From: a virus
Direction: 5' to 3' (one strand)
Virus record (IMG/VR): IMGVR_UViG_3300017991_000337
Span: 1-28,087 of that record
Length of the DNA: 28,087 bases
Positions within the stretch are counted from its first letter, which is position 1. The number at the start of each line of letters is the position of its first letter. Of the stretch, positions 346-22,816 are shown in pieces. The notes under the pieces are model-generated. The model ran no database searches. It was given only the letters and a program-made list of their open reading frames with translations, and was not told the origin of the DNA. The translations under genes and the position numbers were made by a program.

Positions 346-1584
346 TTAGGGCGTATGACTTAGCGCTCCTCCGAATCCGGCGACTATCGCGCGCTCTAAA
401 GAAGTGTGCTCCGCCGCCGCCAGGACGCTGCTTGTCAAACCCGAACCGTTGACGACTTCCCAATTTACGCCATCCGGGGAGATCGCTATTTGCCCGGCTC
501 CCGCCAGCGATCCAATTATAAAATGAGAAAATTTTGGTAGCCATGCCGCCGCCGAGATAGTTCCGGTTATACCGGAAATTATAACCGAAGTCCAGTTCGC
601 GCCGCCGTCGGTCGAATACTGAATTGTTCCGCTTGTAAAAGTACCGGCGACAATGATACCGAGTTTGGGAGAGTACGCCAACGACGCCGTCGCTATCGCC
701 ACAACCGGCGTCCAGTTGACGCCGTCCGTGCTGTAAAATATGTCTTGGCCGCCGGCGTTACCATTGCCGCCGATTACGAAACGATCGCCGCACCAAGCCG
801 CCGCATACAGCGTCCCTTGCCCCGTCACTGGAAAAGGTATCGCGCTCCAAGCTATGCCGTTGGAGCTTGTATAGCTGTTCGTTAACACCACGCCGTCAGG
901 CGCGCCGACAGCGACAAACAGGTTCAGGGTAGGCGACCATGCCGCACCCCACAAAACGGATTGGTTTAGTTGCCCGGACGCTATGGCCGTCCAAGCTACG
1001 CCGCCGTTGTCGCTGTATCGACCGTTGACGGTTCCCGTGTACGTACCGACCGATACTATTCGGCCTTGCGTCCCCAACGTAGGAGACAGAGCCAGACCGT
1101 AATTCGCGGCCCCCGTACCGCCGAGCTGCCCGGCGGCTATGGCCGTCCAGGTTATACCGTCGGCGCTGTACGATCCGGGGGCCGGCCCGACTCCCTGACC
1201 GACGCAAATTAAGTTCCCGCTCGCCGGATCGTATATCGCCGCGAAAATGTTGTCGGTTCCAAATTGCGGGTTCGTAGTCGTCCAGCGCAACAGGTTGAAC
1301 CGGCCGAATCTTTCCGCGAATTCGGAAACGAGCTCACCGGTCGTTAAATCTAGTTCTCCGATAAAAATATCCTGAGCGCCGTCGTATACATAGAGTTTCC
1401 AGGCCGTTGCCGCGCTGTCGTCTATCCACAACATGCCGCCTTGGGCGTATACCGGGCGGCTTGCCCCCTTATGGAGACTTTCCAGCGCGTCGCGCCATTT
1501 CGCGGCGCCGGATAAAATATCCGCCAGAGTCGACCCGCTGGTCGTTAGCGGGTTGATCGGCGCGGGCAATTCGTATTGAGTCAT
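346..1584 (-). CDS. Tail fibre / receptor-binding protein with six Asp-box (BNR) repeats
   Basis: This 412-residue protein has two parts. Residues 1-110 look like a phage fibre attachment region (the segment around SRPVYAQGGMLWIDDSAATAW is split between a collar-like motif and a short beta domain). Residues 135-405 hold six Asp-box motifs of the form S-x-D/N-G-x-x-W, near residues 140, 191, 240, 285, 324 and 369. Such repeats cap blades of sialidase-like beta-propellers and are common in glycan-binding or glycan-cleaving phage tip proteins. No obvious sialidase arginine triad can be assigned, so binding is more likely than catalysis. It lies 1 bp after the tip protein gene and uses a GGAG ribosome site inside the end of that gene, so the two are probably translated together. 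Confidence 0.8.
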   Translation of the reverse strand: MTQYELPAPINPLTTSGSTLADILSGAAKWRDALESLHKGASRPVYAQGGMLWIDDSAATAWKLYVYDGAQDIFIGELDLTTGELVSEFAERFGRFNLLRWTTTNPQFGTDNIFAAIYDPASGNLICVGQGVGPAPGSYSADGITWTAIAAGQLGGTGAANYGLALSPTLGTQGRIVSVGTYTGTVNGRYSDNGGVAWTAIASGQLNQSVLWGAAWSPTLNLFVAVGAPDGVVLTNSYTSSNGIAWSAIPFPVTGQGTLYAAAWCGDRFVIGGNGNAGGQDIFYSTDGVNWTPVVAIATASLAYSPKLGIIVAGTFTSGTIQYSTDGGANWTSVIISGITGTISAAAWLPKFSHFIIGSLAGAGQIAISPDGVNWEVVNGSGLTSSVLAAAEHTSLERAIVAGFGGALSHTP

Positions 1585-1585
1585 A

Positions 1586-4500
1586 TTAAGCTCCGTATCC
1601 TTTCGCTAAATAGTCGAAAGTTCTTGAAACCGGCGTACCGCCGGAATTGAAAAATTGAACGAAAAATCCAGTCTCGTCCTGATTCGTGAGTTCTTTATAG
1701 TCTCCCGTCGCCAAATCCTGAGAGTCGACCGCCAAAGCCGGACGCGCCTTGAAAGCCGGGCTATAGTCGACCTGCAAACCCGCCGTCGGGCAAACTAGAT
1801 CGGTCTCCCCGACAACCCTATCGGGCATATCGACGACGACAGCTAAGTCGGTAACTAAAGGCGTTACGTTGTCTTCCAGACTAAATAATTTCATTCTAAA
1901 TTCAAAACCCCTAGCTGTGTAGTCTCCGGCTGTAAAGTCCAGCCACTCTGACCATGTCGGCGATCCAGTCGGGTCGCCTTCGGTATATCTAACTTGTAGA
2001 GCGACTTCCCAGCCGTCCGCAACGGCCGTCATTGTCTCTCGATTGTAGCCGGAAGCTCCGAAAGTAGCTGTCAACCTGGAAGTGAAAACTGCGCCCAGGT
2101 CTACGGGGTTTGCAGCGAAATAGTATTCTCCCTCGCTCAGGGCGCCTTCCGTCAACGCGTCTACCTCGGCCAAGGTTGTCCAATCGGCCATAACTCCGAC
2201 GCCGTCGAGCTGCAAAACGCCGCCGATGGCGAAAACGTTCACTTTCGTCCCAAGGTAATCGGGCGCCTCGACTAGATTTTCAACAACGTTAAAACTGAGA
2301 AGTCCGGCTATTGTGGACACAACTAGCGCCGCGTTGACGCTCTCGATTCCGAAAACGTCGACCGCTTTTATAAGAAAAGTTCCCACTCTGGCCGGGAGAG
2401 AAATCTGATTACCGGTAACGTTCGTCGCGAAATCCGTAGACGCCGCCCAGGTCGCGCCGCTCGTGGCGGTCGAGTATCTAATTTTATAATGCGACAAATC
2501 CAAATCCGGAACCGGAGACCATGTCAGAAGCGCGGTAGCTCCGGTAATCTGAACGGAAAAATTTTCAACGTCGGCGGGCGGGGCTTTCAGTCCTAGAATA
2601 TCGACCGTCACCGTCGTCCAAGGGCCTGCGGCGTTGGCCGGACTGAGCACTCTGACCCGCAATTTATAAACGCCCGCTTGAATCGGTCTCAAATCCGTTT
2701 CCGGCTCGGTAGTCGTCGACCAGGGCAAAAATCCGTCCGAGTCGGGGTGGAGGTATTGAAAATCGTAGAATCCAACTCTTGCGGCTTGGTTCGGGTCGGC
2801 AGGTATGTCCCAACTTATCCGGGCGCCGGAGAGGATCGAGCCTCCGTCCAAATAAGTATACTCTTCGACCGTGATATTTTCAACCGTCGGCAGATCGGAC
2901 GGATCGAAATTGAAAACGCTATAGCTATCCCGCTCCAGTTTGTAGCCGGATTCAATCGCGGCGAACTTTCCCGGAAGTCGAAATTTTCCGGCAATCTCGA
3001 AAATATTCTTTTCAATCTCCCGTACCGAAACTACTGTAAACTCTCTAGGCGAAACGTTCGAGGCGTTGATAATCCACATTGAGCCGAGGACGGGCAAAGC
3101 CGAAAGCGCGGAACTTAAGTTCATGACGGTTTGATCCGGCCCAGCGGAATTGGTAACGTCCCGGGTTTCGATAGAGCCGTCCGGCAATATCGCGGATAGC
3201 TCGTAGGTCTCCCCGGCCTCAAGCTCGATAGCGGCGTCGATTGTTATGGAGGTTAGAGTCCTTTCGGCCACTCTGCCGCCGAATCTAACCCCGGCATACG
3301 CGGGATCGGCAATCGCGACAATCTCGCCCGGCCTTACGTCCGCATGATCCAACGCGGCGCGATAGGAAACCCGCTCCGACTCGTAGCGTTCAGTTAGAAG
3401 AGTGTACCGTCCGTGTCTGTACGCCTGACCTCTGCTCGTGCATGCGAAAGCGGCAATATCCGTCGGCTTCCAGCCGAACTCTTGAATTAAGTCCTCGTCC
3501 TCCACGACTTCGACGGCTTGCTCGTAGTTGTTCTCCGGGTCGTTCCAGCCGACCAGGGCGACTGAATGCCGCTCGGAAAGTTGAGCGCCGGAGTATGTGA
3601 AGAGGCCGTCGATTACGTTGGCGGGGGAGACGAGCTTGACGAAAGTTTTTTCGTCTTTTTCTTGGGAGAAACTAACCGAACCGTCCGCGCCCCAAAAAAT
3701 AGCGCATCTGAAATTCGACGCTACGGAATTTAAAACCTGATAGGTGTCCTCTCTTTTTCCTAAAACCCCATTAAAAGTGTAGCGCGGCTCCGTCTCGTTT
3801 ATCGAAACCGAATTGCCGGCCGCCTCGACCGCGAGCGTCTCCGAGACCGTGATCTGATCGCCTGAGAACGCCGCGACGGTTTTCAATCCGTTGTTGGCGG
3901 CGTTGGAAAATCCCTCGACGAATAAAATTTGATCAACCTCATATGTCTGGTTGTGCCCAGTCGGTAGCTCGTAAATATTGCCCGCCAGGACTTCAATGTC
4001 GTCGGAGCTGAACCCAAAGCCGGAATTTACGCGCCCGTCGTTGAATTGAGCTATCTCGTATAATCCAAATTTGTCGATCTGGTCGGCCGAGATCGCCCGT
4101 CCTAGGCCGTAGCGTTTCGAGACTAGCAAATCATACAGAATCCAGGCCGGATTGTCAGTCCATTCCGTCTTGAAAAGCCCATTCCACAAACCGGTATATT
4201 CGCGGGTTATCGGATCGTAGTTGATCGGAATTTGAACTTTGACGCCTTTTATCTCGAAAGATCGTTTCGGAACCCCTGCAAAGTCTTTGGCGTTCAACGA
4301 CATCGCATATAGCGCCGTGTCGGGGTATGTAAACTTGGCGTCGATTATCGAAGTGTACGAATCCCAATTCACGGTATCTTCCCAAAATGTTGCTTCCTGC
4401 GGAACCCATCTAAATTTAGTTATCCGTACATCCCATGAAGGCGCCGGTTTCGGAAGCTCCAGCCGAAAATCTATTTTCAGCGGCGATCTTACCGCCCCGA

Positions 4501-5683
4501 CAATATCCAGGTCGACCAGGGTTTCGTAGGAACCGCCGAACGGTTGGACTTCCATTTTCAGCCGAACCCACATCGCGCTGACGCCGCCCCAATCAGGTAT
4601 CCTATAGAATCCTTGAGGAAATTTAATCGTGACCAAAATCGCGTCGAAATCGGCGCCGGTGATTGTCCGCACAACTGGAGTCCCGAAAACTATCTCCGCG
4701 CCGACGGCGGTCGTCTGTTCGGTTTGAGGAAATCCGGGGATGTGTTCTTGGCTGGAGGCCCCGACGCGCTCAGACCAAACGACGTTCTCGAAATTATATT
4801 GATACGCCAGAATCGAAACGGACGGCCCGGCGGCTTCCGGCGTGAGCTCCTCGTAGACTGTTAACTCGTCGCCATCTACCGTTTTAATCCGTTTTAGTCC
4901 ATTATTTTCGGCGTTCGTGAACCCGGAAACGGTAATGAATTGCTCCTCCGAATACGTTTGACCGTGTCCGGCCGGCAGCTCGTAGATGTTGCCGACCAAA
5001 ACCGCTACGGCGTTGGAGCTATAAGTCGTCGTTGGGCCTATGAGCGGAGTATCGTTCAAATATATCGAAGCGGGGCTGTCGTCTACGAGGCCGACGATTT
5101 CGCCCTCGGAAACCACGTCCACAGTCCGCCTTGTGTCTACCGTCCCTTTCCAAATCCCGAAGCCTACGCCGCCGGGGTCGGCCGCTTCCGGCGGAACCCG
5201 TATCGACGTTACGCTTTCGGAAACTACGACCGAGCCCGCCCGCATCCGCCCGTAAACGAGCGGAACGCACACCCCCTGGGCGGCGATGTTCGTCGCGCCG
5301 TTGTAGAGAAACGACGGACTGGACGGCGGTTCCGTCGGGTAGTCCAGGGGGACTATTTCCGGCGCGAATATTTTTCCGAGCGCATAGGACGCGGCCAGGG
5401 TGAAGAGGATAAATGCCCCTCCCGCGCTCCCGGCGATTCTCGGGACGATGGTTATTGAATCCGATTCGCTTAGTTTAAACCGCCAATCGTCCGAAGTTTC
5501 GACCGTTTTTTCAACGCCTCCGCGCTTTCTGACTACGTCGTATTTTCCATTTCTGAAATCGGCCGTGAAGCCGGGCAATTGAGCCGACAGCGCCGACAGA
5601 ACTCCAAAAACCGTCGACGTGTCGAACTCGAACCACCCGCCGTATTTTTCTTTTAATTTACCCGTCAGTTTTACCGAAATCAT
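1586..5683 (-). CDS. Tail tip host-specificity protein: lambda gpI-like domain fused to gpJ
   Basis: This 1365-residue protein starts with a lambda gpI-like region (about residues 1-158): a ubiquitin-like N-terminus, the VPRIAG motif at 80-85, a small glycine/alanine-rich hydrophobic stretch, and the QGVCVPLVYGRMRAGSVVVS block at 136-155. From about residue 165 it follows lambda gpJ, the central tip protein that contacts the receptor: VVSEGEIVGLV (190-200), IPGFP (315-319), the GLYEIAQFNDG region (540-550), and the core around 630-805. Fibronectin-III-like modules follow at about 930-1125. Two extra copies of a beta domain also found in the tail tube protein interrupt the J fold at 226-292 and 563-627. 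It lies between the K-like gene (beyond island A) and the fibre. In lambda I and J are separate genes. Confidence 0.9.
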   Translation of the reverse strand: MISVKLTGKLKEKYGGWFEFDTSTVFGVLSALSAQLPGFTADFRNGKYDVVRKRGGVEKTVETSDDWRFKLSESDSITIVPRIAGSAGGAFILFTLAASYALGKIFAPEIVPLDYPTEPPSSPSFLYNGATNIAAQGVCVPLVYGRMRAGSVVVSESVTSIRVPPEAADPGGVGFGIWKGTVDTRRTVDVVSEGEIVGLVDDSPASIYLNDTPLIGPTTTYSSNAVAVLVGNIYELPAGHGQTYSEEQFITVSGFTNAENNGLKRIKTVDGDELTVYEELTPEAAGPSVSILAYQYNFENVVWSERVGASSQEHIPGFPQTEQTTAVGAEIVFGTPVVRTITGADFDAILVTIKFPQGFYRIPDWGGVSAMWVRLKMEVQPFGGSYETLVDLDIVGAVRSPLKIDFRLELPKPAPSWDVRITKFRWVPQEATFWEDTVNWDSYTSIIDAKFTYPDTALYAMSLNAKDFAGVPKRSFEIKGVKVQIPINYDPITREYTGLWNGLFKTEWTDNPAWILYDLLVSKRYGLGRAISADQIDKFGLYEIAQFNDGRVNSGFGFSSDDIEVLAGNIYELPTGHNQTYEVDQILFVEGFSNAANNGLKTVAAFSGDQITVSETLAVEAAGNSVSINETEPRYTFNGVLGKREDTYQVLNSVASNFRCAIFWGADGSVSFSQEKDEKTFVKLVSPANVIDGLFTYSGAQLSERHSVALVGWNDPENNYEQAVEVVEDEDLIQEFGWKPTDIAAFACTSRGQAYRHGRYTLLTERYESERVSYRAALDHADVRPGEIVAIADPAYAGVRFGGRVAERTLTSITIDAAIELEAGETYELSAILPDGSIETRDVTNSAGPDQTVMNLSSALSALPVLGSMWIINASNVSPREFTVVSVREIEKNIFEIAGKFRLPGKFAAIESGYKLERDSYSVFNFDPSDLPTVENITVEEYTYLDGGSILSGARISWDIPADPNQAARVGFYDFQYLHPDSDGFLPWSTTTEPETDLRPIQAGVYKLRVRVLSPANAAGPWTTVTVDILGLKAPPADVENFSVQITGATALLTWSPVPDLDLSHYKIRYSTATSGATWAASTDFATNVTGNQISLPARVGTFLIKAVDVFGIESVNAALVVSTIAGLLSFNVVENLVEAPDYLGTKVNVFAIGGVLQLDGVGVMADWTTLAEVDALTEGALSEGEYYFAANPVDLGAVFTSRLTATFGASGYNRETMTAVADGWEVALQVRYTEGDPTGSPTWSEWLDFTAGDYTARGFEFRMKLFSLEDNVTPLVTDLAVVVDMPDRVVGETDLVCPTAGLQVDYSPAFKARPALAVDSQDLATGDYKELTNQDETGFFVQFFNSGGTPVSRTFDYLAKGYGA
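3803..3997 (-). repeat. Tail-type beta domain, copy 2 in the tip protein
   Basis: Codes for residues 563-627 of the tip protein, with core GFSNAANNGLKTV and a GNIYELP lead-in. It interrupts the J-like fold between GFGFSS and TEPRYTF, where lambda J reads straight through a short GFGG-TEPR loop. It shares 19 identical bases, CCGTTGTTGGCGGCGTTGG on the plus strand (3888-3906), with the tail tube gene (15540-15558). Confidence 0.75.
4808..5008 (-). repeat. Tail-type beta domain, copy 1 in the tip protein
   Basis: Codes for residues 226-292 of the tip protein, with core GFTNAENNGLKRI, the same GNIYELP lead-in as copy 2 and a shared AAG-x-SVSI tail. It sits after the SIYLNDTPL motif and before YNFENVVW, where lambda J has a short turn between the equivalent strands. 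The two J copies are closer to each other than to the tube copy at the protein level. Confidence 0.75.
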
Positions 5684-5789
5684 ACGCCAATCCCACAGCT
5701 ATTAGATTTATATTTTACAAGATTTAATCTCAGTCTATCAGCGCGACCGGAAAAAGTAAAATTAATTTAATCTTTTTTAACTATTTTTC

Positions 5790-5817
5790 TTGACAGTATT
5801 TACCTGTCGTATATAAT
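5790..5817 (+). promoter_or_regulatory. Promoter P1 of island A (conserved moron cassette)
   Basis: The -35 box TTGACA (5790-5795) and -10 box TATAAT (5812-5817) are both perfect sigma70 matches, with a 16-bp spacer. The upstream AT box TTTAACTATTTTT and the GTA following the -35 are shared with the promoters at 7016 and 9718. An AAACCTAAA leader motif lies at 5837-5845 and AAGGA at 5856-5860. It drives the gene starting at 5866. Confidence 0.85.
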
Positions 5818-5865
5818 GGTATTCAACAAAGCAACAAAACCTAAACTTTAAAACGAAGGATTCAG

Positions 5866-6276
5866 ATGAAAATTAACAAATCAAAATTAATGAAAAAAGC
5901 CTGGGACATTGCAAGAAAGGCGATGAAAAATTTTGGCGGAAAAGTTAGAGAATATTTATCTGAATCTTTAAGAACAGCATGGAGTATTATGAAAATGAGA
6001 ACTCAAGAGATAGTGCAAACTGAAAAACATCTTGAAATACTAAAAACATGGATTGATAAAGCTGAAAAATTTTTCGACAACACATATAGGGAAATCTTGT
6101 CTAAAGACGTAACGGAAGTTACAAACAAAGAATTGATCCAGCGCAATGCGGGAGTAATGTTGGAGGATGAAATAAATATGAAAAAAAGAAAATTAAAAAA
6201 AATGGAAGCCGGTAAAATTATGTCTCAAAAAGTTCTAAGAGACATCGAAGCTCTTGAAACGGCAACTATTAAATAA
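5866..6276 (+). CDS. Small basic helical protein, island A (unknown function)
   Basis: This 136-residue protein is lysine-rich and predicted almost entirely helical. Its N-terminus carries a K-x-AW-x-IAR-x-A-x-x-x-FGG-K-V-x-EY motif (residues 11-30), followed by a second AW (38-39). I recall this motif at the start of various uncharacterised phage and plasmid proteins, but no function is established to my knowledge. Residues 50-136 are charged helices that could form a coiled coil. There is an AAGGA ribosome site 5 nt before the ATG. The gene is AT-rich and its codons differ visibly from those of the flanking tail genes, which suggests separate acquisition. Its stop overlaps the 3' end of the convergent K-like gene by 8 bp. 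Confidence 0.75.
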   Translation: MKINKSKLMKKAWDIARKAMKNFGGKVREYLSESLRTAWSIMKMRTQEIVQTEKHLEILKTWIDKAEKFFDNTYREILSKDVTEVTNKELIQRNAGVMLEDEINMKKRKLKKMEAGKIMSQKVLRDIEALETATIK

Positions 6277-7003
6277 TTTTTAAGTCTCTATGGCGCAACC
6301 AAAATTTAATATGTTTTCTCCAGCGCGAAATATTTTCCTCCCGTGGGTATCGAGTCGGGTCGAACGGGGCCGCGCCGCCCGGATGATGATATATCGCGCC
6401 GTTGCCGACATAGATCGCGCAATGGTGCGGAACGTCCGATTTTACGCCGATTACGGCTAAATCCCCGACTCCAGGCTCCTCCTTACCCGGATCGAACTTA
6501 TAGAATCCCGCATTGGAGAAACCGCTCTCGAGGATACCCTCGGACTTCCACCACTCCCATTCTCGGACAATCGGCGGGAGTTTTACCTCCCGCCCGGCAT
6601 ACCAATTTCTTACTAGTTCGTAGCAATCGCTGACGGCGTGGCGGAAAGGCGCGCTGTCGAGACTTTCGCCGTTTCCGAACTGAAACATGTCGGAGACCCG
6701 ACCGCTATTCACAACCCCGATTATCCAGGGAGCGGCGGTCTCTATCTGCCTCTCTTGGTCGAATACGGACGGGTAGTCCGGCCCGCCAATGTGGCTATGC
6801 GCGACCGCTCCGATTCTCCCGGCGTATTTACAGAGTTTCGCGGCTTCGATCTGGAACCCGGTTTTCCGGCCTTCTTTGGACAAAACGTTTCTACATGGGA
6901 CAAATAGCCCTGAGTCTTTTAAAATTATCCCGCAGCTCTCCTCTGTCGGATGCTGGAGGAACCAGTCTTTTATTTGCTTGATTGCGACTTTATTTATAAA
7001 CAT
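6269..7003 (-). CDS. Tail-tip assembly peptidase, lambda gpK-like (JAMM + NlpC/P60)
   Basis: This 244-residue protein has two domains, as in lambda gpK. Residues 1-115 form a JAB1/MPN domain with a complete JAMM zinc site: E22 in EESCG, then H69-x-H71-x7-S79-x2-D82. Residues 120-244 form an NlpC/P60 cysteine peptidase domain with C127 in SDCYELV, H194 in HHCAIYVG and a further H206/H207 pair. Both domains therefore look catalytically competent. The family works in tip assembly and possibly in local peptidoglycan cleavage during DNA entry. The ATG at 7003 directly abuts the divergent promoter cassette P2, leaving no room for a good Shine-Dalgarno sequence. Its 3' end overlaps the convergent island A gene by 8 bp. 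Confidence 0.9.
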   Translation of the reverse strand: MFINKVAIKQIKDWFLQHPTEESCGIILKDSGLFVPCRNVLSKEGRKTGFQIEAAKLCKYAGRIGAVAHSHIGGPDYPSVFDQERQIETAAPWIIGVVNSGRVSDMFQFGNGESLDSAPFRHAVSDCYELVRNWYAGREVKLPPIVREWEWWKSEGILESGFSNAGFYKFDPGKEEPGVGDLAVIGVKSDVPHHCAIYVGNGAIYHHPGGAAPFDPTRYPREENISRWRKHIKFWLRHRDLKII

Positions 7004-7015
7004 TAACTATTTTTC

Positions 7016-7044
7016 TTGACAGTATTTATTTAATTCGAGATACT
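7016..7044 (+). promoter_or_regulatory. Promoter P2 of island B (conserved moron cassette)
   Basis: TTGACA at 7016-7021, a 17-bp spacer and GATACT at 7039-7044. The upstream TTAACTATTTTTC and following AGTATTTA match promoter P1. The leader AAACCTAAATTAATTA (7064-7079) is identical to that of P3, followed by AGGAG at 7081-7085. The cassette begins immediately at the start codon of the divergent K-like gene. Confidence 0.85.
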
Positions 7045-7093
7045 AAGCTTACATTAACTGATTAAACCTAAATTAATTATAGGAGAAGCGAGA

Positions 7094-7390
7094 ATGAAAT
7101 TAGAAAAATACCCAGAATATGACTGTAATTTTTACCGCGCTCGGTACGAGTTGAGCGAATGTAATCAAGCTGTTTTCTATTCAACCTCAAAACCTAATTT
7201 TAAAAGTAAAAACGTTTTGGAGATTAGCATCAAGGCTGTTAAAAAACAAACTGGCGAACCTGTAGGCTTTCTATTAATTCAGGTTGATATGGCTGATAGC
7301 GAAATTTATAGAGACTCCGAAGCGTGTCGGGCGGCGATAAAGCAAGCGTTGAATTTAAAAACCGACGATTTCGAAGTATGGAGCATGTAG
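7094..7390 (+). CDS. Hypothetical protein, first gene of island B
   Basis: This 98-residue soluble protein begins MKLEKYPEYDCNFYRARYEL and is of mixed alpha/beta composition. I do not recognise the family. It is the promoter-proximal gene of the longest island, with AGGAGAA 7 nt before its ATG. Genes of this size directly behind a strong promoter in phage accessory cassettes often act on host functions, but nothing in the sequence shows such an activity here. The next gene starts 57 bp later, after a 6-bp GC hairpin at 7404-7419. Confidence 0.65.
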   Translation: MKLEKYPEYDCNFYRARYELSECNQAVFYSTSKPNFKSKNVLEISIKAVKKQTGEPVGFLLIQVDMADSEIYRDSEACRAAIKQALNLKTDDFEVWSM

Positions 7391-7403
7391 ACCGTAACTC
7401 TAA

Positions 7404-7419
7404 GCCGGATTACTCCGGC
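7404..7419 (+). other. Small GC hairpin between island B genes 1 and 2
   Basis: GCCGGA-TTAC-TCCGGC forms a perfect 6-bp stem with a 4-nt loop. There is no U-run after it, so it is not a standard terminator. It lies 15 nt before the AGGAG ribosome site of the gene at 7448 and could mark an RNA processing point or modulate read-through. Confidence 0.45.
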
Positions 7420-7447
7420 GTCCACCATAAGCATAGGAGTTTTAATT

Positions 7448-8101
7448 ATGGGAAATTTATTCTTTACGGATAAAAATCCGGCGGTTTGCGCCGGCAATCT
7501 ACCGGATATGTATCTCGCGCCGGTGCTGAAATGCATCGCTCGGATAAAGTCCACATTCCTGCAATCGCGCGGATTCGTCGCGCCGTACAAGCCCGTTAAG
7601 TGGGCCTCGGACTACATTAGGTGGCTATCCGAGAGCTACGCGAATGCGGAATGGCTATATGAGTACGCCCAAGCGCTGCAATCCGAGTATAGCCGAGCGT
7701 ATGAAAAAACCAAAGTCCTAAAATCGTTCAAAATCGTCGTGGCGTGTTTGCAGCTTGCGAAGAAAACGAACGCTCCGAAATGGAAAGCGGCTCCCTGGAC
7801 GCCGCCCCCGGCGATATTCGCCAGGGGTTTCGACGGCCCCAGGGAGATTAAAGGTTGGCTGGAATTCAACGATATTGCCAAAAATCGCGCATATTTAAAC
7901 TGGAAAGTCCAATGCCATTCTATAGACGAAAAAAACCCCGAACTCTACAGTTGGTCGAATCGTCCGACGCCCAATTTTATAGACCTTCTACCGAAATACA
8001 TACCACGGTACCGTTCCGCACCGATGTCCCCCGCTTCCGTCGGTAATTTACGATTTACAAGCAAATATGTTACGACTCCTTTTGGTAGAAACCGAACATG
8101 A
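7448..8101 (+). CDS. Uncharacterised phage protein, divergent LFFxDxxP family member, island B
   Basis: This 217-residue protein resembles a widespread uncharacterised phage family that starts with a LFYLDxDPxxxA-like motif and has later YKP, W-x-x-ES-x-x-N-x-x-WL and TPxP motifs. Here these appear as LFFTDKNPAVCA (4-15), APYKP (45-49), WLSESYANAEWLYEY (59-73) and TPPPAIFARGF (117-127). The family's conserved D-K-H-V-x-K-M stretch near residue 20 is degenerate here (DMYLAP), so any activity depending on it may be lost. Function of the family is unknown to me. The start has AGGAG 8 nt upstream. It overlaps the next gene by ATGA, which indicates translational coupling. Family assignment is from memory of motif order, not from an alignment. 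Confidence 0.65.
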   Translation: MGNLFFTDKNPAVCAGNLPDMYLAPVLKCIARIKSTFLQSRGFVAPYKPVKWASDYIRWLSESYANAEWLYEYAQALQSEYSRAYEKTKVLKSFKIVVACLQLAKKTNAPKWKAAPWTPPPAIFARGFDGPREIKGWLEFNDIAKNRAYLNWKVQCHSIDEKNPELYSWSNRPTPNFIDLLPKYIPRYRSAPMSPASVGNLRFTSKYVTTPFGRNRT

Positions 8102-8460
8102 ACGACTTTAAAATCGAATGGGATTTAGCGAAAACCGAATTGCAGCTCCAGGTATGGAACAAGCTTGAAAGCCTCGTAGACGAACTGGATTCGGCGTCCG
8201 ACGACTGGGAGAAGTACCGCCCGGAAGAAAGGCCGGAAGAGATGACGGAGAAGGAGCTTAAAAAACTTACGAAATCCGAACTTATCGAACAATGTCTCTC
8301 GATGCAGACTACCATGAACGTGGAGTTGGACGACATCGGGACGTCGATAAAAGAGACCTTGGAATCGATTCTCGAACCGTGCCGCGACGATCTTCTCGAC
8401 TTGCGGCGTAAAGCCGAGGGCATTCTAAACAGACTAACTTTCGTAAAACTTTTTGGATAA
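8098..8460 (+). CDS. Hypothetical acidic helical protein, island B
   Basis: This 120-residue protein is strongly acidic and predicted helical throughout, with heptad-like stretches (about residues 50-75 and 80-110) compatible with a coiled coil. No catalytic motif or membrane segment is visible and I do not recognise the family. It starts within the ATGA overlap at the end of the preceding gene, so it is coupled to it, and it is followed closely by the GDSF-type gene. A structural, scaffolding or decoy role is possible but cannot be read from the sequence. Confidence 0.65.
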   Translation: MNDFKIEWDLAKTELQLQVWNKLESLVDELDSASDDWEKYRPEERPEEMTEKELKKLTKSELIEQCLSMQTTMNVELDDIGTSIKETLESILEPCRDDLLDLRRKAEGILNRLTFVKLFG

Positions 8461-8470
8461 TAAAAATACT

Positions 8471-8746
8471 ATGTACAAAATAGATAAAAACATCCCTATC
8501 CCACCCCGCAAACATCAGGGCAACCCGCTAGGTCATAGGGACGTCTATCCGTTCGCCGAACTGCGGCCCGGAGACTCGTTTCTAATACCGACGGACAACT
8601 CTCCGGCCGGAAATCAAATAGCCCGAAATAGAGCCGGAGCGACCTTCCGCCGTAGCCGTCACGCTCACAGATATAAAATCGTGACCAGGAACGTTAAAGG
8701 CGGCGTCAGGGTGTGGCGCGAGCCGGAGGGAAAAACGGAGGTTTAA
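8471..8746 (+). CDS. Small phage protein with GDSF and GGVRVWR motifs, island B
   Basis: From the ATG at 8471 the protein has 91 residues and begins MYKIDKNIPIPPRKHQG. It has YPFAELRPGDSFLIP (26-40) and ends in KIVTRNVKGGVRVWREPEG. This combination, a Y-P-x-x-x-L/M-x-x-GDSF box followed by R-x-V-x-GGVRVWR, is a recurrent short family in phages of many bacteria with no established function. A TTG start at 8453 in the same frame lies inside the previous gene. I prefer the ATG because it matches the usual family N-terminus. No Shine-Dalgarno sequence is seen, so coupling to the upstream stop (8458-8460) is likely. Confidence 0.7.
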   Translation: MYKIDKNIPIPPRKHQGNPLGHRDVYPFAELRPGDSFLIPTDNSPAGNQIARNRAGATFRRSRHAHRYKIVTRNVKGGVRVWREPEGKTEV

Positions 8747-8752
8747 AAGAAT

Positions 8753-8962
8753 ATGTTAATGAAAATCCTATGCGCCCTTGCTGGGGCTTCGCTTTTTGTA
8801 TGCGGGTTTGTATCCGGGAGTGTAATGCTAATTCATACGGCTACCGACTTTATTCAATATGGCGGCTTTTCTATACCGCTATTTCTTGGGATGCTAGCGT
8901 CCGGGGTGCTCATTTGCGCAGGAATCGCGGTAGTGCCTATCGTATTATCTTTAATTGCCTAA
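8753..8962 (+). CDS. Small two-helix membrane protein, end of island B
   Basis: This 69-residue protein has two hydrophobic segments (about residues 4-29 and 40-68) joined by a short polar loop (HTATDFIQYGG), which is typical of a small inner-membrane protein. GGAGG lies 11 nt before the ATG. Candidates are a superinfection-exclusion protein, a holin-like protein or a membrane-acting host modifier. The absence of an endolysin nearby argues against a lysis role, and position in an accessory island favours exclusion, but this is inference. It ends 18 bp before the convergent L-like gene. Confidence 0.65.
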   Translation: MLMKILCALAGASLFVCGFVSGSVMLIHTATDFIQYGGFSIPLFLGMLASGVLICAGIAVVPIVLSLIA

Positions 8963-8980
8963 GATTAAAGGCTGGTATAT

Positions 8981-9694
8981 TTAACGACTCAACTTAGAAA
9001 CCCCCGGAAAGCCCGCGAAAGGCAATTCCGCGTTTTCTCCGAACCGCGCCCGGCAGCTTGCTAGGCGCTTTCCGCAACGATCATTCTCAGGCAAAGTTTC
9101 GGGTACGTCCGAGGTATTGAAGTAGCTTGCGCCGGCGTATGGGCATGTAGCCGATGCATAGTCGAACGCCGCGCCCGTCCACGTTCTGTAAATGTGGGAG
9201 CAGCTAGTTTTTAAAATCTGTCTACCTGGCAGAAACGAATTTTCGTTGTCTAGAACAGACCTCAACTCCCAACTGATTTGAATTTTATTTTGCTCCGTTT
9301 TACGATTGACGACAAACACGTCGTCCGGGAATCGGGCTTGCGGGTCGGGGTCGGCTCCGTCGTCCAGGAATTGCCGGAAAGTCCGTATTCTACGGAACGG
9401 AGCTCCAAGCAAATCGTCGAACCCGTAAAGCAAAGCTTGGTATGTGAATTCCACATTGCTTACTTTCAGCTCGGGAGACGGTAAAGCCCCGTCGGAGTCG
9501 GCGTCGAATCCGGTCGCCTCGCAATTTATCGGCGTGTAGGTATTTCCGTCGAAAACGATCGCCGACGACTCGAAAGCCGAGGAGGTGAATCGTAGGAGCG
9601 GGCCGCCTCTGGAGGTTAAATCCAGCTCGAAGAGAACGACCATCCTCCCAGGGCTAAAACCCTGCTGAGTTTCTTTTAAATTTAAATCCGTCAT
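8981..9694 (-). CDS. Minor tail protein, lambda gpL-like, with four-cysteine Fe-S site
   Basis: This 237-residue protein matches the lambda gpL family, a tail-tip component that carries an iron-sulfur cluster in its C-terminal domain. The C-terminal cysteines C165, C184, C207 and C214 are all present, and the last three have spacing of 23 and 7 residues as I recall for lambda. The N-terminal part (1-150) is the beta-rich tip domain with RGGPLLRFTSSA. It would assemble with M, K and the I-J protein at the end of the tape measure. The gene starts directly at the edge of the divergent P3 cassette and has no good Shine-Dalgarno sequence. Confidence 0.9.
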   Translation of the reverse strand: MTDLNLKETQQGFSPGRMVVLFELDLTSRGGPLLRFTSSAFESSAIVFDGNTYTPINCEATGFDADSDGALPSPELKVSNVEFTYQALLYGFDDLLGAPFRRIRTFRQFLDDGADPDPQARFPDDVFVVNRKTEQNKIQISWELRSVLDNENSFLPGRQILKTSCSHIYRTWTGAAFDYASATCPYAGASYFNTSDVPETLPENDRCGKRLASCRARFGENAELPFAGFPGVSKLSR

Positions 9695-9717
9695 TTAATC
9701 TTTTTTAACTATTTTTA

Positions 9718-9746
9718 TTGACAGTAATGTTCTGGTTTGAAATACT
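9718..9746 (+). promoter_or_regulatory. Promoter P3 of island C (conserved moron cassette)
   Basis: TTGACA at 9718-9723, a 17-bp spacer and AATACT at 9741-9746. The upstream box is almost identical to that of P1 over about 24 bp (from 9693), and AAACCTAAATTAATTA (9770-9785) and AGGAG (9787-9791) match P2. TTTGAAATACTA around the -10 is identical to the minus-strand coat promoter candidate at 20877. Confidence 0.85.
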
Positions 9747-9799
9747 ATATTTACACTAGTCGATAAACGAAACCTAAATTAATTACAGGAGAAACCGAA

Positions 9800-9988
9800 A
9801 TGGAAAGGATAATGTACAGCGTTTACTATAGTTCCCATGAATACGCGAAAACCCACTCACTAGACACGGTGGATCGAGACGTCGCGCTAGAAGAGGTTGC
9901 GCGTCTAACTAAAACGAGTTTCGATTGCCTTATTGAATGTAACGAGTTGACCGAAATAGAATATCTAGAGTTTAAAAATGAAACCTAA
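9800..9988 (+). CDS. Hypothetical small protein, island C gene 1
   Basis: This 62-residue acidic protein begins MERIMYSVYYSSHEYAKTHS and has no recognisable motif or membrane segment. An in-frame ATG at codon 5 is an alternative start, but AGGAG 8 nt before the first ATG supports the start given. It is the first gene behind promoter P3 and overlaps the next gene by 11 bp. Function is unknown. Confidence 0.6.
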   Translation: MERIMYSVYYSSHEYAKTHSLDTVDRDVALEEVARLTKTSFDCLIECNELTEIEYLEFKNET

Positions 9989-10172
9989 AAAGAAAGCTAA
10001 ATTTTCAGTACGAGCGTACAAAACGCCAAATTGTCAAGAGTCGGAGGTAGTTATGGAGACTTTCGACATCCACGAGGCCGTAGATAAGCAAATCGAGCTG
10101 CGGGAGTCTAGGAAATACTTCGCGGTTCACTTAACCGGAACCTATGTTCCTGTATCAGAAATAGGGGGCTAA
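9978..10172 (+). CDS. Hypothetical small protein, island C gene 2
   Basis: This 64-residue protein has a basic N-terminus (MKPKKKAKFSVRAYK) and a beta-strand-rich C-terminus (YFAVHLTGTYVPVSE). I do not recognise it. Its start lies 11 bp inside the preceding gene in another frame, which suggests translational coupling. Its TAA (10170-10172) shares CTAA with the TAG of the convergent M-like gene, so there is no spacer or terminator between them. Confidence 0.6.
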   Translation: MKPKKKAKFSVRAYKTPNCQESEVVMETFDIHEAVDKQIELRESRKYFAVHLTGTYVPVSEIGG

Positions 10173-10513
10173 AGATCGAAAACTTCCTCAAACTCGGTTC
10201 GCAGAGTAGAAAACCCGGACGCCACCGGCGTTTTGGTCAGGCTTCTGGCGATCCATTTCCGTTCGGCCGATTCGTCCGGAGCCGTCCACAGGAACGCGAT
10301 ATAGCCGAGCTTGTCGATTAGGAAATCGTAAAGCGAAGCGATATCGGCGTCCGGGCGGTTCTCCCATGTTAGCGACCAGTTTATTTTCTTGGAGTTGAGA
10401 CCGTCGGCGGCTCTTTGACTGTAGCCGTCTCCGAAATCGGCCTCCAAAACTCCGAATTCCGTGACTCCGTTCGATCCGTAGCTGGGCGCTACGGCAGGTA
10501 GAGGATCGGCCAT
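10169..10513 (-). CDS. Minor tail protein, lambda gpM-like
   Basis: This 114-residue protein has the features of the phage minor tail family that includes lambda gpM: a V-L-E-A-x-F-G-D-G-Y-x-Q-R motif (22-34), W-S-L-x-W (46-50) and a late F-L-W-T-A-P (72-77). These proteins form a ring at the end of the tape measure where the tip starts. In lambda it lies directly between H and L. Here it is separated from both by plus-strand islands C and D. Length is close to lambda gpM (109 residues). Confidence 0.88.
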   Translation of the reverse strand: MADPLPAVAPSYGSNGVTEFGVLEADFGDGYSQRAADGLNSKKINWSLTWENRPDADIASLYDFLIDKLGYIAFLWTAPDESAERKWIARSLTKTPVASGFSTLRTEFEEVFDL

Positions 10514-10531
10514 AATAATTTAAAGGTAAAA

Positions 10532-10963
10532 ATGTCTAAATTCGAAAATTTAAAAATCGGCGATACCGTTCTGACTCCTATTGTAGTGAGCAGCCCGTAC
10601 AGCCTGCGCGGTCGCAAGTTTCTGATATCCCGCGCCGTGGAGCATGTAACTAAAACTCAATTTACGGCGGACGGTCTCCGCTACTCGAAACAGTACGGCT
10701 CCGGAATCGGTCACTGCGGAAAGGCCGAAATTCCCGGCGGAATTCCCCACTCCGCAAGCGAGGAAATTCTAAAAGATCAAACCGCCGAGATGGAAGATTT
10801 TAAAAGACGCGTAGGTATTTTAAGAGATATTCGAGACGCCGCCGAGCAGCTAATCAAATCCATACGTCACGACGGGAAGCTGCTGAACATTTCGCTCGAC
10901 AACCTGGAATCCGCACGCAACCGGATAAAAGCCGCTCAAACCGATCTGAATATTAAAATCTAA
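10532..10963 (+). CDS. Hypothetical phage protein, island D
   Basis: This 143-residue protein has an N-terminal beta domain (about 1-60) with F-E-N-L-K-I-G-D-T-V-L and V-T-K-T-Q-F-T-A-D-G-L-R-Y, a pattern I have seen in small uncharacterised phage proteins that pair a KVGD opening with a later TKTQF block. Residues 80-143 are helical and may be coiled coil. No function is known to me. It begins 18 bp from the start of the divergent M-like gene, too little room for the conserved promoter cassette, so it probably depends on read-through from P3 across the M-like gene. Its TAA shares CTAA with the convergent tape measure stop. Confidence 0.7.
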   Translation: MSKFENLKIGDTVLTPIVVSSPYSLRGRKFLISRAVEHVTKTQFTADGLRYSKQYGSGIGHCGKAEIPGGIPHSASEEILKDQTAEMEDFKRRVGILRDIRDAAEQLIKSIRHDGKLLNISLDNLESARNRIKAAQTDLNIKI

Positions 10964-13900
10964 ACAACCCGCTGCCTATTCAAGCGGCCTCCGGGCCGCT
11001 GTTCTTTGCTCAAAAATTTATTGAAAGCCCCTTCCAACTCCCGGTTTACCTGGCGCGATATTTCCGCGCCGACTTCCTGGTTTGCCCCCTGAACTCTATC
11101 GATATTTATTCTCACCACCGGCGCGAAAGTTACCGGGCCGGACGGCGTGGAGGTTTGAGCCGCCACGACTCCGAGCTGACCCCGTGAATTTCGCGACAAC
11201 GGGAGAATAGCCTCCGGCCCGGCCTCTCCCATAACCCCCAGTGGAAAAGCGGTCGGCTTATCCACAATTCGATTCGTGAAAGCCCCGCCCTGGGCGAACG
11301 CCGGAACGGAACCGGACGCCGCAACGGCCTTCATTGCGGCATAGGAGGTTGTGTAGGCGGTGGTCGCGGTCGTAGCCGCGCCGCCGGAAGTTGCAATCGA
11401 AGCCGTTATGGAGGCGGGCGTGTACGCCGCGTTTATGGCCGCGCCGCTGGTAGCCGCGCCCGCCGCAAGCGCCGCTTGGGAGGCTAGAGCGTCGGCGGTT
11501 AGCGCACGGTTGGTTGCGAGCGTCGCGGCCTGGGCTACGGCCTCGGCTGAACGGGCGGCGTTTCCAACCGTCGCCATAGCTAACTGAGTTTCAATAAACT
11601 TCGCTATTAAATCGGCCGCTATACGCTTGCTTAGATTAGTTATGGATTGCCCGAGGTCGTCGCCGAAAACAATCGCTCTGGCGGCTGAATCGGCGAGCCC
11701 ACGCTGGAGACTTCCGCCCGGCCCGAAAACCTCGGCGAAGGCGACGCCCATCGCGAAAGCCGCCGACCTTGTGGCCTCGACCATGCTTTCAAGCTGCGTG
11801 GCGTATCCTCCCGCAAACGAGGTTTCAAACTGTTCGTTGCTCATGGCTATAAAATCGTCAATAAGCTGTTGAGCCGTCGCGATCTGATCGGCGGTTAAGT
11901 CTGCCAAATTCTCAGCGCCTGTACCCGCCTGTACAGGCGCGCCCGGCGTCTGCGGAGTCGGAAGTTTCGCCGATTGTCTAATCGTCGCGGTTTTTCTCAC
12001 GGCGCCTTCAAAATCTCTGACGAAATCACCGATAAAGTCGGTCGATAGCGCGTCGCTCCATAATTTTTGCGTATTGTTTGCGATCCTAGTCGCCGTACCC
12101 TCGAAATGATCCTCGACGCGCCCCAAGGCGAAGGTAAAGTCGTTTTCCCGAAATTCCGGCTCGATTAATAGGTCGAAATCCAAAAGCGGTAATCGATTAG
12201 CTTGAGAGATAAGAAAGTTTATCCCACGTATCGTATTTGTTGAAACAGTTTCTAGAAAATCGGCGGAAGCGTTCACAACCCGGTTTATCAAGGCTTCGGT
12301 CGTAGATACTACGGCATTAGTGACTTTAACCATCACCGAACCAACCGCCGGAACTATCAACCGCCAATTTTCTTCAATTGTGTTTATCGTTCCAGCAAAC
12401 AGCCCGATAACGACGTTCAGACCGCTCTTAACCGCGTCTCCTATATCCGGCATAGTCAAATTTACAGGCTCGATCCAGCCGAAAACGGAGTCGGCGATCG
12501 CCGCGGACGCCCGGCTAAACAGGTCGACCCAAAAGCCGACCGCGTCGCCCAAAATGTCGGTTATGCCGTTCCAGACAGTGACGAAAACATCGCGGAGCGT
12601 GACGGCTCCATCTTTAATAACTTCTATTTCATCGCTGAAAACTACCAGGGCGCTAACCGCCGCCGTGACTGCGACGGCAATCGCGCCGAGAGGATTGGCG
12701 GCTATGGCGGCGGTGAACAGTCTAACTCCGGTAGTTGCCAGACCTATTGCCGTTACAAATTGAGTCCCTATGAGCGCGATGATTTGCGGCCCGAAAGCGG
12801 CCGCCATCGCAACCCCGGCAACGGTCGCGGCCTTGGCTATATCCTCGAAATTATCGATTATAAAACGGGTCGCGGGCAACAGAACGTTGCTGACGGCGTC
12901 GCCGAATTCAATACCGATAACTGTTACGAGAGCTTTAAATTGTCGGGTCGCGAACCCCGGAGATTCGGCAATTTTCCTGAATGCGGTATCGGTCTCGCCA
13001 AGTTTTCTATCCACATCGCTTAAAATATCCGCGAAAACGGCAGCCCCCGACCCTGTCAGCGCCAAAACTGGAGTGAGCGCCTCCACCCCGCCGAATAATT
13101 TTCCGAGCGTTTCGACGTTCTGCCCTGTAATCGTCTTTAAATCCTCTAAAAAGTCAGCCAATCCGCGTTTTTGCAAACCCGCCGCGCTAAAATTAATCTG
13201 TAAGTCCCGGCTTTCTTTATTCAGCCGCGTCATTTCCGTTATCGCCTCGCCTGTCGGTTTTATAATTGCCGCAAGTACCGCCCGCAGTCCGGTCGCTGCC
13301 TCGGACGTGCTCGGCATCGTTTTAGTTAACGTAGCTAGAGCGGCAAAAAGTGCATTCACAGAAACCCCGCCCGCCTCGGCCAAGTTCGCCACCTTGCCCA
13401 TTTCGCGCGCCAACTGGCCAACGTTCGTTTTTCCTCGCCGCATGGCGACGAAAAAAGCATCGGAAATGTCGGAAACCGAACCCGCTTTCGCCCCGTACGA
13501 GTCCATAACGGCGGTTATGCCCTTAACGGCGGTGACGACGTCTGTCACGCCCCCGACCGCTAGACGGTTGGCGGCGGTTAGAATGGAGGTGGCTTCGGCG
13601 GCGTTTTCCGCTCCGGCCGAAATAATTTGATAGAACGCTTGAGCTTGCGCGGTCGGTAGCGATCCGAATTGAACCGCTTGGCGTTTGGCCTCTTCCGAAA
13701 TGAGGGACATTTGCCCGGGTACGTCGTCAAGCAGCGTCGAGACTTCCGCGAGAGAATCTTTAAAAGCGTTTGCCGCGCTGGTCGCGGCTCCGAGGGATGC
13801 GGCGAAAACTCCCGCCGCCGTGGTAATGAGTAGGGATTTTTGAAAGGTGTTGAGCGCGCCGGTCGCGCCGGTCGCGGACTTGCCGACTCCGTCGATTGCG

Positions 13901-13971
13901 CGTTTAGCTTCCAGACCTCCTATTTTCGCGCCTTTAGGATCAATTACAACGTCAAGTCTCGCGTCCGTCAT
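10960..13971 (-). CDS. Tape measure protein
   Basis: This 1003-residue protein sets tail length and is ejected through the tube with the DNA. The conserved tape measure core lies at about residues 75-300, followed by a hydrophobic stretch at 383-446 likely to insert in the host membrane. The C-terminal MGEAGPEAILPL motif (914-925) is typical of lambda gpH-like tape measures, where the tail end is processed after assembly. At about 1.5 angstrom per residue the length predicts a tail near 150 nm. Its ATG lies inside the end of the frameshifted chaperone gene, as expected for G-GT-H. Long antisense open frames here come from its alanine/glycine-rich codon use and are not genes. Confidence 0.93.
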   Translation of the reverse strand: MTDARLDVVIDPKGAKIGGLEAKRAIDGVGKSATGATGALNTFQKSLLITTAAGVFAASLGAATSAANAFKDSLAEVSTLLDDVPGQMSLISEEAKRQAVQFGSLPTAQAQAFYQIISAGAENAAEATSILTAANRLAVGGVTDVVTAVKGITAVMDSYGAKAGSVSDISDAFFVAMRRGKTNVGQLAREMGKVANLAEAGGVSVNALFAALATLTKTMPSTSEAATGLRAVLAAIIKPTGEAITEMTRLNKESRDLQINFSAAGLQKRGLADFLEDLKTITGQNVETLGKLFGGVEALTPVLALTGSGAAVFADILSDVDRKLGETDTAFRKIAESPGFATRQFKALVTVIGIEFGDAVSNVLLPATRFIIDNFEDIAKAATVAGVAMAAAFGPQIIALIGTQFVTAIGLATTGVRLFTAAIAANPLGAIAVAVTAAVSALVVFSDEIEVIKDGAVTLRDVFVTVWNGITDILGDAVGFWVDLFSRASAAIADSVFGWIEPVNLTMPDIGDAVKSGLNVVIGLFAGTINTIEENWRLIVPAVGSVMVKVTNAVVSTTEALINRVVNASADFLETVSTNTIRGINFLISQANRLPLLDFDLLIEPEFRENDFTFALGRVEDHFEGTATRIANNTQKLWSDALSTDFIGDFVRDFEGAVRKTATIRQSAKLPTPQTPGAPVQAGTGAENLADLTADQIATAQQLIDDFIAMSNEQFETSFAGGYATQLESMVEATRSAAFAMGVAFAEVFGPGGSLQRGLADSAARAIVFGDDLGQSITNLSKRIAADLIAKFIETQLAMATVGNAARSAEAVAQAATLATNRALTADALASQAALAAGAATSGAAINAAYTPASITASIATSGGAATTATTAYTTSYAAMKAVAASGSVPAFAQGGAFTNRIVDKPTAFPLGVMGEAGPEAILPLSRNSRGQLGVVAAQTSTPSGPVTFAPVVRINIDRVQGANQEVGAEISRQVNRELEGAFNKFLSKEQRPGGRLNRQRVV

Positions 13972-20905: not shown

Positions 20906-21647
20906 CTACCGCAATTTCGCCCTTGGCTACGGCGTCGATATATTTTCCGGTCTGATATTCCGCGCGCGTGATAGTCTTAACCGCGCCGCCCGAACCGCCC
21001 GAACCGCCCGAACCGCCCGCACCGCCGCCGGAATTGCCCTCGAACAGGTACGGCGCCTCCTCGTATAGGCTTTGGGCGTACTCTTCCGCTGTTAGAGGGA
21101 GTTTTCCGTCCGAGCCGTAAATCGCGGCTCCGTCCTTCATAGCTACTGGAACGCCGTTTTCGTTGACTTCCCAAATGCTTCGCGCTCTGTGGAGAATGTC
21201 GGTAAGCGCGCCTTTTTGAACTTTCCCGACGTTGCTAACCGCCTTGGCTATCGTATCGTTGATGAGCAAGTCGTTCAATTTCCCTTTGTACGTCCCGGTC
21301 TGCTTCTCGGCGTTTTCTTTCGCGTCGAGCGCCTGCTTCAGGCGATCTTCATACTCGGTACGGAGCTTTTCGACGTCCTCGTTTCCGCCGTTTTTCTGAG
21401 CTTCCGCAAGCTTCGTCCGCAGCTCGTCGGCTTCGGTCTGCAACTGCTTGTAGCGATCGGCGTCGATGCCCGCGAAACCTTCAAGTTTTTGCTTAAGTTC
21501 AATGTTGTTGGTTCTAAATTCGTTGATTTTGTTCTTATATTCGCCGTCGTCGGTATCCAACACAAAACCACCCTCGCTCGCGGTATAGTAGCCGCGTAGC
21601 GTCTCATCAACATCGTTCAGACTTTTAATAAAAACTTTAAGTGCCAT
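20898..21647 (-). CDS. Capsid scaffolding protein
   Basis: This 249-residue protein has a short globular N-terminus (1-35), a long charged coiled coil (about 36-125), a region with GKLNDLLINDTIAKAV (125-140) and I-W-E-V-N-E-N-G-V-P, then a glycine/serine linker of G-G-S repeats (about 206-220) and a short C-terminus. This is the layout of gp20-type phage scaffolds, which guide shell assembly and leave or are cut before packaging. It directly precedes the coat gene, as usual. The glycine repeat visible at 20990-21030 is a coding repeat, not a separate element. AGGAG lies 11 nt before the ATG. Confidence 0.85.
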   Translation of the reverse strand: MALKVFIKSLNDVDETLRGYYTASEGGFVLDTDDGEYKNKINEFRTNNIELKQKLEGFAGIDADRYKQLQTEADELRTKLAEAQKNGGNEDVEKLRTEYEDRLKQALDAKENAEKQTGTYKGKLNDLLINDTIAKAVSNVGKVQKGALTDILHRARSIWEVNENGVPVAMKDGAAIYGSDGKLPLTAEEYAQSLYEEAPYLFEGNSGGGAGGSGGSGGSGGAVKTITRAEYQTGKYIDAVAKGEIAVVD

Positions 21648-21661
21648 AATTTTTTAATCTC

Positions 21662-22816
21662 CTATGCATATTTCTCCTGCAATTCGGCGACCGTCAAAGG
21701 GCGGCCGCGTTGGTTTACTAAATCTGTGAATGTAATTTTATTCTCTTGCCACAACTCGTACTTCGTCGGCCCGAGCTTTTCAAGCTGGACGCTCTTGGGC
21801 TTCGACCGCAGCCACGCTTCGTAGGAAGTGCCTGCCGCTACTTGGCCGTCCATGCTCGCGCGGGTGGTCGGCTCGATCTCCAGAATCTTATTATGTTTGC
21901 CGGGCGGAAGCTGTTTCCGTCTCAAACTCTCCCAACTTTTCAAATATGGAATCAGGAAAGTCCGGCAATTCCAGTGCCAAGGCGGCGCCCCTGGAAAGCT
22001 TTCCGTCGTTCCGGAAATAGGCTTCCCGGTTTCCAAATCCCAAACGGCGGAGGAACGGCCAATGCAAATCGTAGTCGTTCTAAGATCAAGAGTAACGACC
22101 GCCTGAACGCCCTGAACGATATCGGAGTTTTGCCGGAGAGTCTCAAGGTTCGCCTCGTTTGAAACCGCCTGAACGCTCGATCTCACGAGAGCTTCGGCCT
22201 GCCGCGTTCCGGTCTCCATGATGCCGCCGGCAAACTCGACATAGACTTTGCGCTTGCCGTTCAGCCAGTAGACCTCCCGTTTTCCGGTGGCCGTTCCGCG
22301 AACCCGCTGAACCAATTGGGCGTTCGTTTCTCCCTGCAAAACGCCCTGCCTTATTTGATCCTCGAACTTTCTAAGTAGATTCGATTCTTGGCGGCTCCAC
22401 CAATCGCCGGACGGGGCGCCCTCGATCAACGTATCGGACATCAAAGCGGAAATCCGCTCCGGCGTCAACGTAACGGAGGCGATATCGACGCCGAGCGCGC
22501 TGTTCAGAGTCGAAACCGTAAATCCGGCTTGCTCCCGAACTAACGGCCTAATCTCTCTGTTCGCGGCGCTCCGGGCGGCGGAATAAGCTTCGCGTATTGT
22601 GACTTTCACATATGCGAGAAGTTTTTCCAGCCGTCTCCGACGCCAACTCGGAGCGGCGGGTTCGGTCGGCGATATATCCCGGATTTGCCGTTCAAGTTCA
22701 GTTTGAAGCTCCCGGAGATACCCGAGCGACCGTTGACGGACGCTCTCTTTGAGCCGCTCCAGGTCGGCCGCTCTGGAAATATATTTGTCTTCTAACGCAT
22801 CGGCGATGTTGGCCAT
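21662..22816 (-). CDS. Minor head / head morphogenesis protein, MuF-like
   Basis: This 384-residue protein has a helical N-terminus (1-230) and a C-terminal MuF domain with T-L-D-x-R-T-T-T-I-C (242-251), a G-x-P-I-S-G turn, F-P-G-A-P-P-W-H-W-N-C-R (274-285) and I-P-Y. MuF proteins sit inside the head near the portal and can be ejected. No toxin domain is fused to this one. Its ATG overlaps the methyltransferase stop as TAATG, so it is coupled to that gene. Confidence 0.88.
   Translation of the reverse strand: MANIADALEDKYISRAADLERLKESVRQRSLGYLRELQTELERQIRDISPTEPAAPSWRRRRLEKLLAYVKVTIREAYSAARSAANREIRPLVREQAGFTVSTLNSALGVDIASVTLTPERISALMSDTLIEGAPSGDWWSRQESNLLRKFEDQIRQGVLQGETNAQLVQRVRGTATGKREVYWLNGKRKVYVEFAGGIMETGTRQAEALVRSSVQAVSNEANLETLRQNSDIVQGVQAVVTLDLRTTTICIGRSSAVWDLETGKPISGTTESFPGAPPWHWNCRTFLIPYLKSWESLRRKQLPPGKHNKILEIEPTTRASMDGQVAAGTSYEAWLRSKPKSVQLEKLGPTKYELWQENKITFTDLVNQRGRPLTVAELQEKYA

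Follow-up and report, generated by a model that had tools for sequence, protein, structure and literature searches.

Organization of the tail-tip region

The window, which is the whole stretch of 28,087 nucleotides that was analysed, is a 28-kb IMG/VR virus fragment in which the minus strand carries the late genes, terminase through J. The genes for H, M, L, K and the fused I-J protein are all intact on this strand. The first 93 residues of the fusion (aa 1-93) match phrog_32 (lambda I). Because I is fused to J, the region has exactly four tail-tip junctions, and plus-strand open reading frames (ORFs) are present in all four. The ORFs and PHROG matches confirm the sequence-only reading of this DNA, which described a lambda-type gene order kept on the minus strand and interrupted at each junction by plus-strand genes. 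The islands are D (H/M, one gene), C (M/L, two genes), B (L/K, five genes), and A (K/I-J, one gene), with nine plus-strand genes in total.

1586..5683, minus strand: fused tail assembly protein I and central fibre J (phrog_31, E=5e-208)
5866..6276, plus strand: island A gene, 136 aa, N-terminal Phage_Gp111 domain, 31% GC (PF07410, E=7e-13, above gathering score; codon test)
6269..7003, minus strand: tail assembly protein K, NlpC/P60 (phrog_30, E=7e-46; PF00877)
7094..7390, plus strand: island B gene 1 (B1), 98 aa, no family match (ORF, cassette ribosome site, codon test)
7448..8101, plus strand: island B gene 2 (B2), 217 aa, basic (N-terminal half phrog_624-like, E=1.5e-8)
8098..8460, plus strand: island B gene 3 (B3), 120 aa, acidic (ORF, codon test, net charge)
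8471..8746, plus strand: island B gene 4 (B4), 91 aa (97 aa from TTG 8453), DUF7303-like (PF23978, phrog_7597)
8753..8962, plus strand: island B gene 5 (B5), 69 aa, hydrophobic membrane protein (hydropathy maximum 2.68)
8981..9694, minus strand: minor tail protein L (phrog_18, E=7e-72)
9800..9988, plus strand: island C gene 1 (C1), 62 aa, acidic, no family match (ORF, ribosome site, codon test)
9978..10172, plus strand: island C gene 2 (C2), 64 aa, with a probable homologue at the M/L junction of a relative
10169..10513, minus strand: minor tail protein M (phrog_14, E=2e-24)
10532..10963, plus strand: island D gene, 143 aa, no cassette (ORF, codon test)
10960..13971, minus strand: tape measure protein H (phrog_991, E=1e-49)

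When codon usage is scored with the late genes as training set, the annotated frame is the best of six for all nine island ORFs; the lowest score, about zero, belongs to B5. AGGAG-type ribosome sites precede the starts of B1, B2, and C1. The B2 and B3 genes overlap by the sequence ATGA, and C1 and C2 also overlap. The stop codons of islands and tail genes interlock, by 4 nt at C/M, 4 nt at D/H, and 8 nt at A/K, and a gap of 18 nt separates the end of island B from L. ORFs that overlap by chance do not account for this layout. The GC content is 31% in A, 38% in B1, 41% in C1, and 49% in D; it is below that of the late genes in A, B1, C1, and C2, and close to it in B2, B3, B4, and D.

Sequence searches of Pfam, PHROGs, NCBIfam, PADLOC, and the PDB matched protein A to Gp111 and B2 to phrog_624, whereas B4 resembles DUF7303 slightly below the cutoff (PF23978, E=1.4e-5), and no other island protein has a family match. 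The remaining weak matches in these five collections were discarded as chance. B2 also matches jumbo phages by tblastn. No convincing paralogy was detected among the island proteins, and single-sequence AlphaFold models of D (pLDDT 58) and B2 (pLDDT 41) are too poor for a structure search. None of the island proteins resembles a known defence family in PADLOC, where the matches were weak and partial, with E values of 0.004 at best, and searches of PHROGs, Pfam, and PADLOC assigned no anti-defence or host-takeover function to any of them. The products of the overlapping B2 and B3 genes have net charges of +16 and -12, respectively, and it is possible that they form a complex.

Promoter-like cassette upstream of islands A, B, and C

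Each of the islands A, B, and C starts with a copy of one cassette, which is composed of TTAACTATTTTTnTTGACAGTA, a spacer of 16-17 nt ending in TATAAT, GATACT, or AATACT as the -10 element, and the leader AAACCTAAA. Copies B and C carry an additional TTAATTAnAGGAGAA after AAACCTAAA.

5765..5817, plus strand: cassette copy A, AT-rich upstream element, TTGACA-16-TATAAT (12/12 sigma-70 match)
7003..7087, plus strand: cassette copy B, TTAACTATTTTTCTTGACAGTA, TTGACA-17-GATACT, leader AAACCTAAATTAATTATAGGAGAA (abuts the K start codon)
9693..9793, plus strand: cassette copy C, TTGACA-17-(TG)AATACT, leader AAACCTAAATTAATTACAGGAGAA (begins at the L start codon)

The cassettes are promoter-like, and strong sigma-70-like promoters may drive islands A, B, and C, provided that the host has promoters of this type. 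When up to three mismatches are allowed, the 28-kb window contains three copies of the cassette, all positioned just upstream of islands, against 0.02 expected by chance; the leader occurs twice, against 0.00 expected. Copy C shares a 34-nt match with copy A. Copy B starts at the K start codon and copy C at that of L, so that the cassette occupies the whole of the divergent gap. The exact cassette sequence has no match in IMG/VR. A shortened version gave three single matches in unrelated settings, which were judged to be chance.

Island D and the terminator-like hairpin

Island D begins 18 bp from the start of M, and no cassette or promoter was found there. The search for terminators showed no strong one behind A, B, or C, so that these islands differ from morons with terminators of their own. 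Lacking a cassette, D probably relies on read-through from the C promoter across M.

10983..11000, plus strand: terminator-like hairpin after D, antisense to the 3' end of H (7 pairs, 6 of them G-C, then GTTCTTTGCT)

This hairpin is the best plus-strand terminator-like hairpin of the region, with a fold of -15.8 kcal/mol, and lies 20 nt past D, within the end of H. The closest tail relative found (L119) has a counterpart hairpin in the corresponding part of H, built of different bases and with a T-rich run, whereas none of 26 other relatives has a comparable hairpin and two have a weaker one. The hairpin is located in conserved H coding sequence (RPGGR) and is followed by five T in eight positions; terminator-like sites are no more common than in shuffled sequences. 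Because the stretch is coding, the evidence for a terminator is suggestive only.

Gene content of the junctions in related phages

L119 is the one close relative found, with identities of 71% in M, 69% in L, and 55% in H, and its contig stops inside L. Its H/M junction is clean, with a gap of 3 bp, and D is absent. The M/L junction of L119 contains two antisense genes, the content of which differs from that of island C. One of them encodes an HslV/proteasome-like peptidase (11947-12402, minus strand; phrog_1040, E=7e-33). The other encodes a protein of 61 aa that resembles C2 (33% identity over 43 aa; E=2e-6 when the two are compared alone). A search of the other fetched ORFs with the island proteins yielded this match and no further one (E=0.027), and the protein is probably a homologue of C2 at the same junction. 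Because the C2-like gene starts 9 bp from L and has no clear promoter, read-through is likely to be needed in L119 too. No cassette was found in L119 within three mismatches. With the C2-like and HslV-like genes in this place, the M/L junction appears to be kept as an antisense site while its contents changed; D, by comparison, is present in the window and absent from L119. The comparison agrees with the expectation of the sequence-only reading that relatives would lack single islands or carry other genes at the same junctions. A set of nine genes fixed without variation in all close relatives, which would argue against gene capture, was not seen, since L119 differs. No near-identical phages were found in the GenBank phage set, and no relative emerged when L and H were searched against 84,980 genomes of bacteria and archaea.

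The survey of related loci covered 143 junctions in 38 loci, about 37 of which are relatives more distant than L119. M-L-K-I-J is almost always contiguous in them. The islands of the window thus lie between genes that are adjacent in relatives, as H-M-L-K-I-J is contiguous in most and the H/M junction of L119 is clean. The exceptions among the 38 loci are same-sense genes at M/L in two of them (L099 and L103), a sense and an antisense gene at L/K in Halomonas phage H4907, and loci with broken frames. The M/L gaps of 954 and 925 bp in L099 and L103 were considered as antisense islands and rejected, because their genes are on the same strand.

A gene-by-gene reading of 25 annotated lambda-type phages showed antisense genes in the H-to-J region of four: Moraxella phage Mcat4 at K/I, Pseudomonas phage phiAH14a at L/K, AUS531phi at K/I and I/J, and Halomonas phage H4907 at L/K, where one sense and one antisense gene are present. 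These small antisense genes at junctions are like those of the window, but no phage has more than two of them, at a single junction or at two, compared with four junctions and nine genes here. Insertions in the same sense are likewise frequent at M/L and K/I. The uncultured phage ctLpZ231 (L127, MW202444), the TerL of which is 47% identical, contains islands of small antisense genes at three structural junctions (21568-21849, 30300-31391, and 35639-36151), one of them with a strong sigma-70-like TTGACA-17-TATTAT. Unlike in the window, its tail module is unrelated, and no common cassette or gene was found. Because four of the 25 annotated phages and ctLpZ231 show it, antisense insertion at a junction is a recurrent event, and antisense placement in lambda-type tails is less exceptional than had been claimed from the sequence alone. 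Single antisense cases are known in other phages, and the filling of every junction is unusual. Occupation of four out of four junctions by nine genes with a common cassette is extreme among the cases surveyed.

Proposed organization of transcription

We consider it rather probable that the islands form an accessory plus-strand operon, early or constitutive, which is interleaved in antisense within the late tail-tip operon, is expressed by read-through, ends near the hairpin, and undergoes gene turnover. The nine genes would be an accessory set expressed by the host RNA polymerase early or constitutively, the timing being suggested by the promoter type. Transcription would start at the three copies of the cassette, a strong sigma-70-like element located ahead of A, B, and C, pass through the intervening tail genes in antisense, and end in the vicinity of the hairpin that follows D. 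Read-through of this kind would express the promoterless island D from the C promoter across M. When the late minus-strand operon is on, opposed polymerases and complementary RNA would damp both programmes reciprocally, as in noncontiguous operons. Gene gain and loss would take place in the space that follows the stop of a tail gene and precedes the next start, where inserted DNA would cost neither reading frame anything.

The main alternative, unlikely though deserving serious consideration, is that the islands are four independent classical morons, captured separately and expressed alone, each with its own promoter and terminator. The differing GC contents of A, B1, C1, and D fit separate capture, as do the presence and absence of islands, which vary independently in L119, and the single insertions of either orientation in other phages. 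However, D has no promoter, A, B, and C are not followed by strong terminators, and unrelated sources would not give one cassette common to A, B, and C; a single interleaved plus-strand unit fits these features better.

It is improbable that the plus-strand promoters mainly produce antisense RNA that delays the translation of K, L, and M, with the small proteins being secondary. Strong predicted promoters do aim at these three genes in antisense with no clear terminator between them, but codon scores favour the stated frame of each of the nine ORFs, several have family matches and good ribosome sites, and one family has probably been kept in L119 while its DNA context changed. An ancestral early operon into which tail genes were inserted, forming an old fixed arrangement, is very improbable: the stop-codon overlaps of 4 and 8 nt point to tight, settled packing, but nearly all relatives lack the islands and have contiguous tail genes, and the gene content of L119 differs. 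That the plus-strand ORFs are not genes is scarcely credible, because, although long spurious antisense ORFs occur elsewhere in the window (for example, 12770-13630), the island stretches have no competing minus-strand genes and display codon bias in the stated frame, ribosome sites, cassettes, and family matches.

The repeated insertion mechanism suggested by the sequence-only reading is partly supported by gene turnover (the absence of D and the altered M/L island in L119, together with contiguous genes in distant relatives) and by the cassette common to A, B, and C. The cassette repeats could act as recombination homology for insertion; L119 is without them. A more far-reaching proposal, which is tentative and on balance doubtful, is that a mobile promoter cassette of about 100 bp, placed at the start codons of tail genes, drives the capture of antisense accessory genes, so that early and late operons become interdigitated and time each other.

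Comparison with known accessory genes and noncontiguous operons

Position often serves to locate the accessory genes of phages, many defence and counter-defence genes among them. A moron is an inserted accessory unit (PMC4378225). The islands resemble lambdoid morons, which are small accessory genes positioned between genes adjacent in relatives, with promoters of their own, often an odd base composition, and a patchy distribution. They differ from them in occupying four junctions in a row, all in antisense, as multi-gene units with a common cassette, in lacking a terminator each, and, for D, in lacking a promoter.

The men locus of Staphylococcus aureus is a noncontiguous operon, in which opposite-strand genes with their own promoter are nested in an operon and the transcripts overlap (PMC7154746). 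The plus-strand genes of the window have the same opposite-strand layout, with predicted promoters in their cassettes, and appear to be nested in an operon in a similar manner. In contrast to the single interruption at men, the window would represent two operons alternating through four islands, as read from its sequence. Phage accessory genes antisense in a phage operon, and under reciprocal regulation with it, have been described in two cases. In phi80, the Q-driven late operon carries in antisense the gene taiEcA, the product of which drops when Q is on (PMC11364771). In S. aureus phage 80alpha, Tha and its inhibitor Ith are arranged as a noncontiguous operon, which acts as a switch between lysogeny and lysis (PMC11087260). 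However, taiEcA/atiEcA and Tha/Ith are prophage immunity and counter-immunity genes, and the likeness to the window is one of layout alone.

The arrangement suggests that the opposite strand of lambda-type tail-tip junctions is worth searching for accessory genes, and that extensive insertion can leave the late operon unbroken. Should transcript data bear this out, the locus would provide a compact natural test of the way in which two opposed programmes share a piece of DNA over time.

Other features of the window

A gene for a DNA methyltransferase of 543 aa (22816-24447, minus strand; phrog_67) is located between the portal and a head morphogenesis gene, in the late direction. Downstream of J, at the place where a tail fibre is expected, is a gene for a protein of 412 aa with no PHROG match (346-1584, minus strand). 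A short tandem repeat of 9 bp (20981-21025) encodes a glycine-rich stretch near the end of the scaffold gene.
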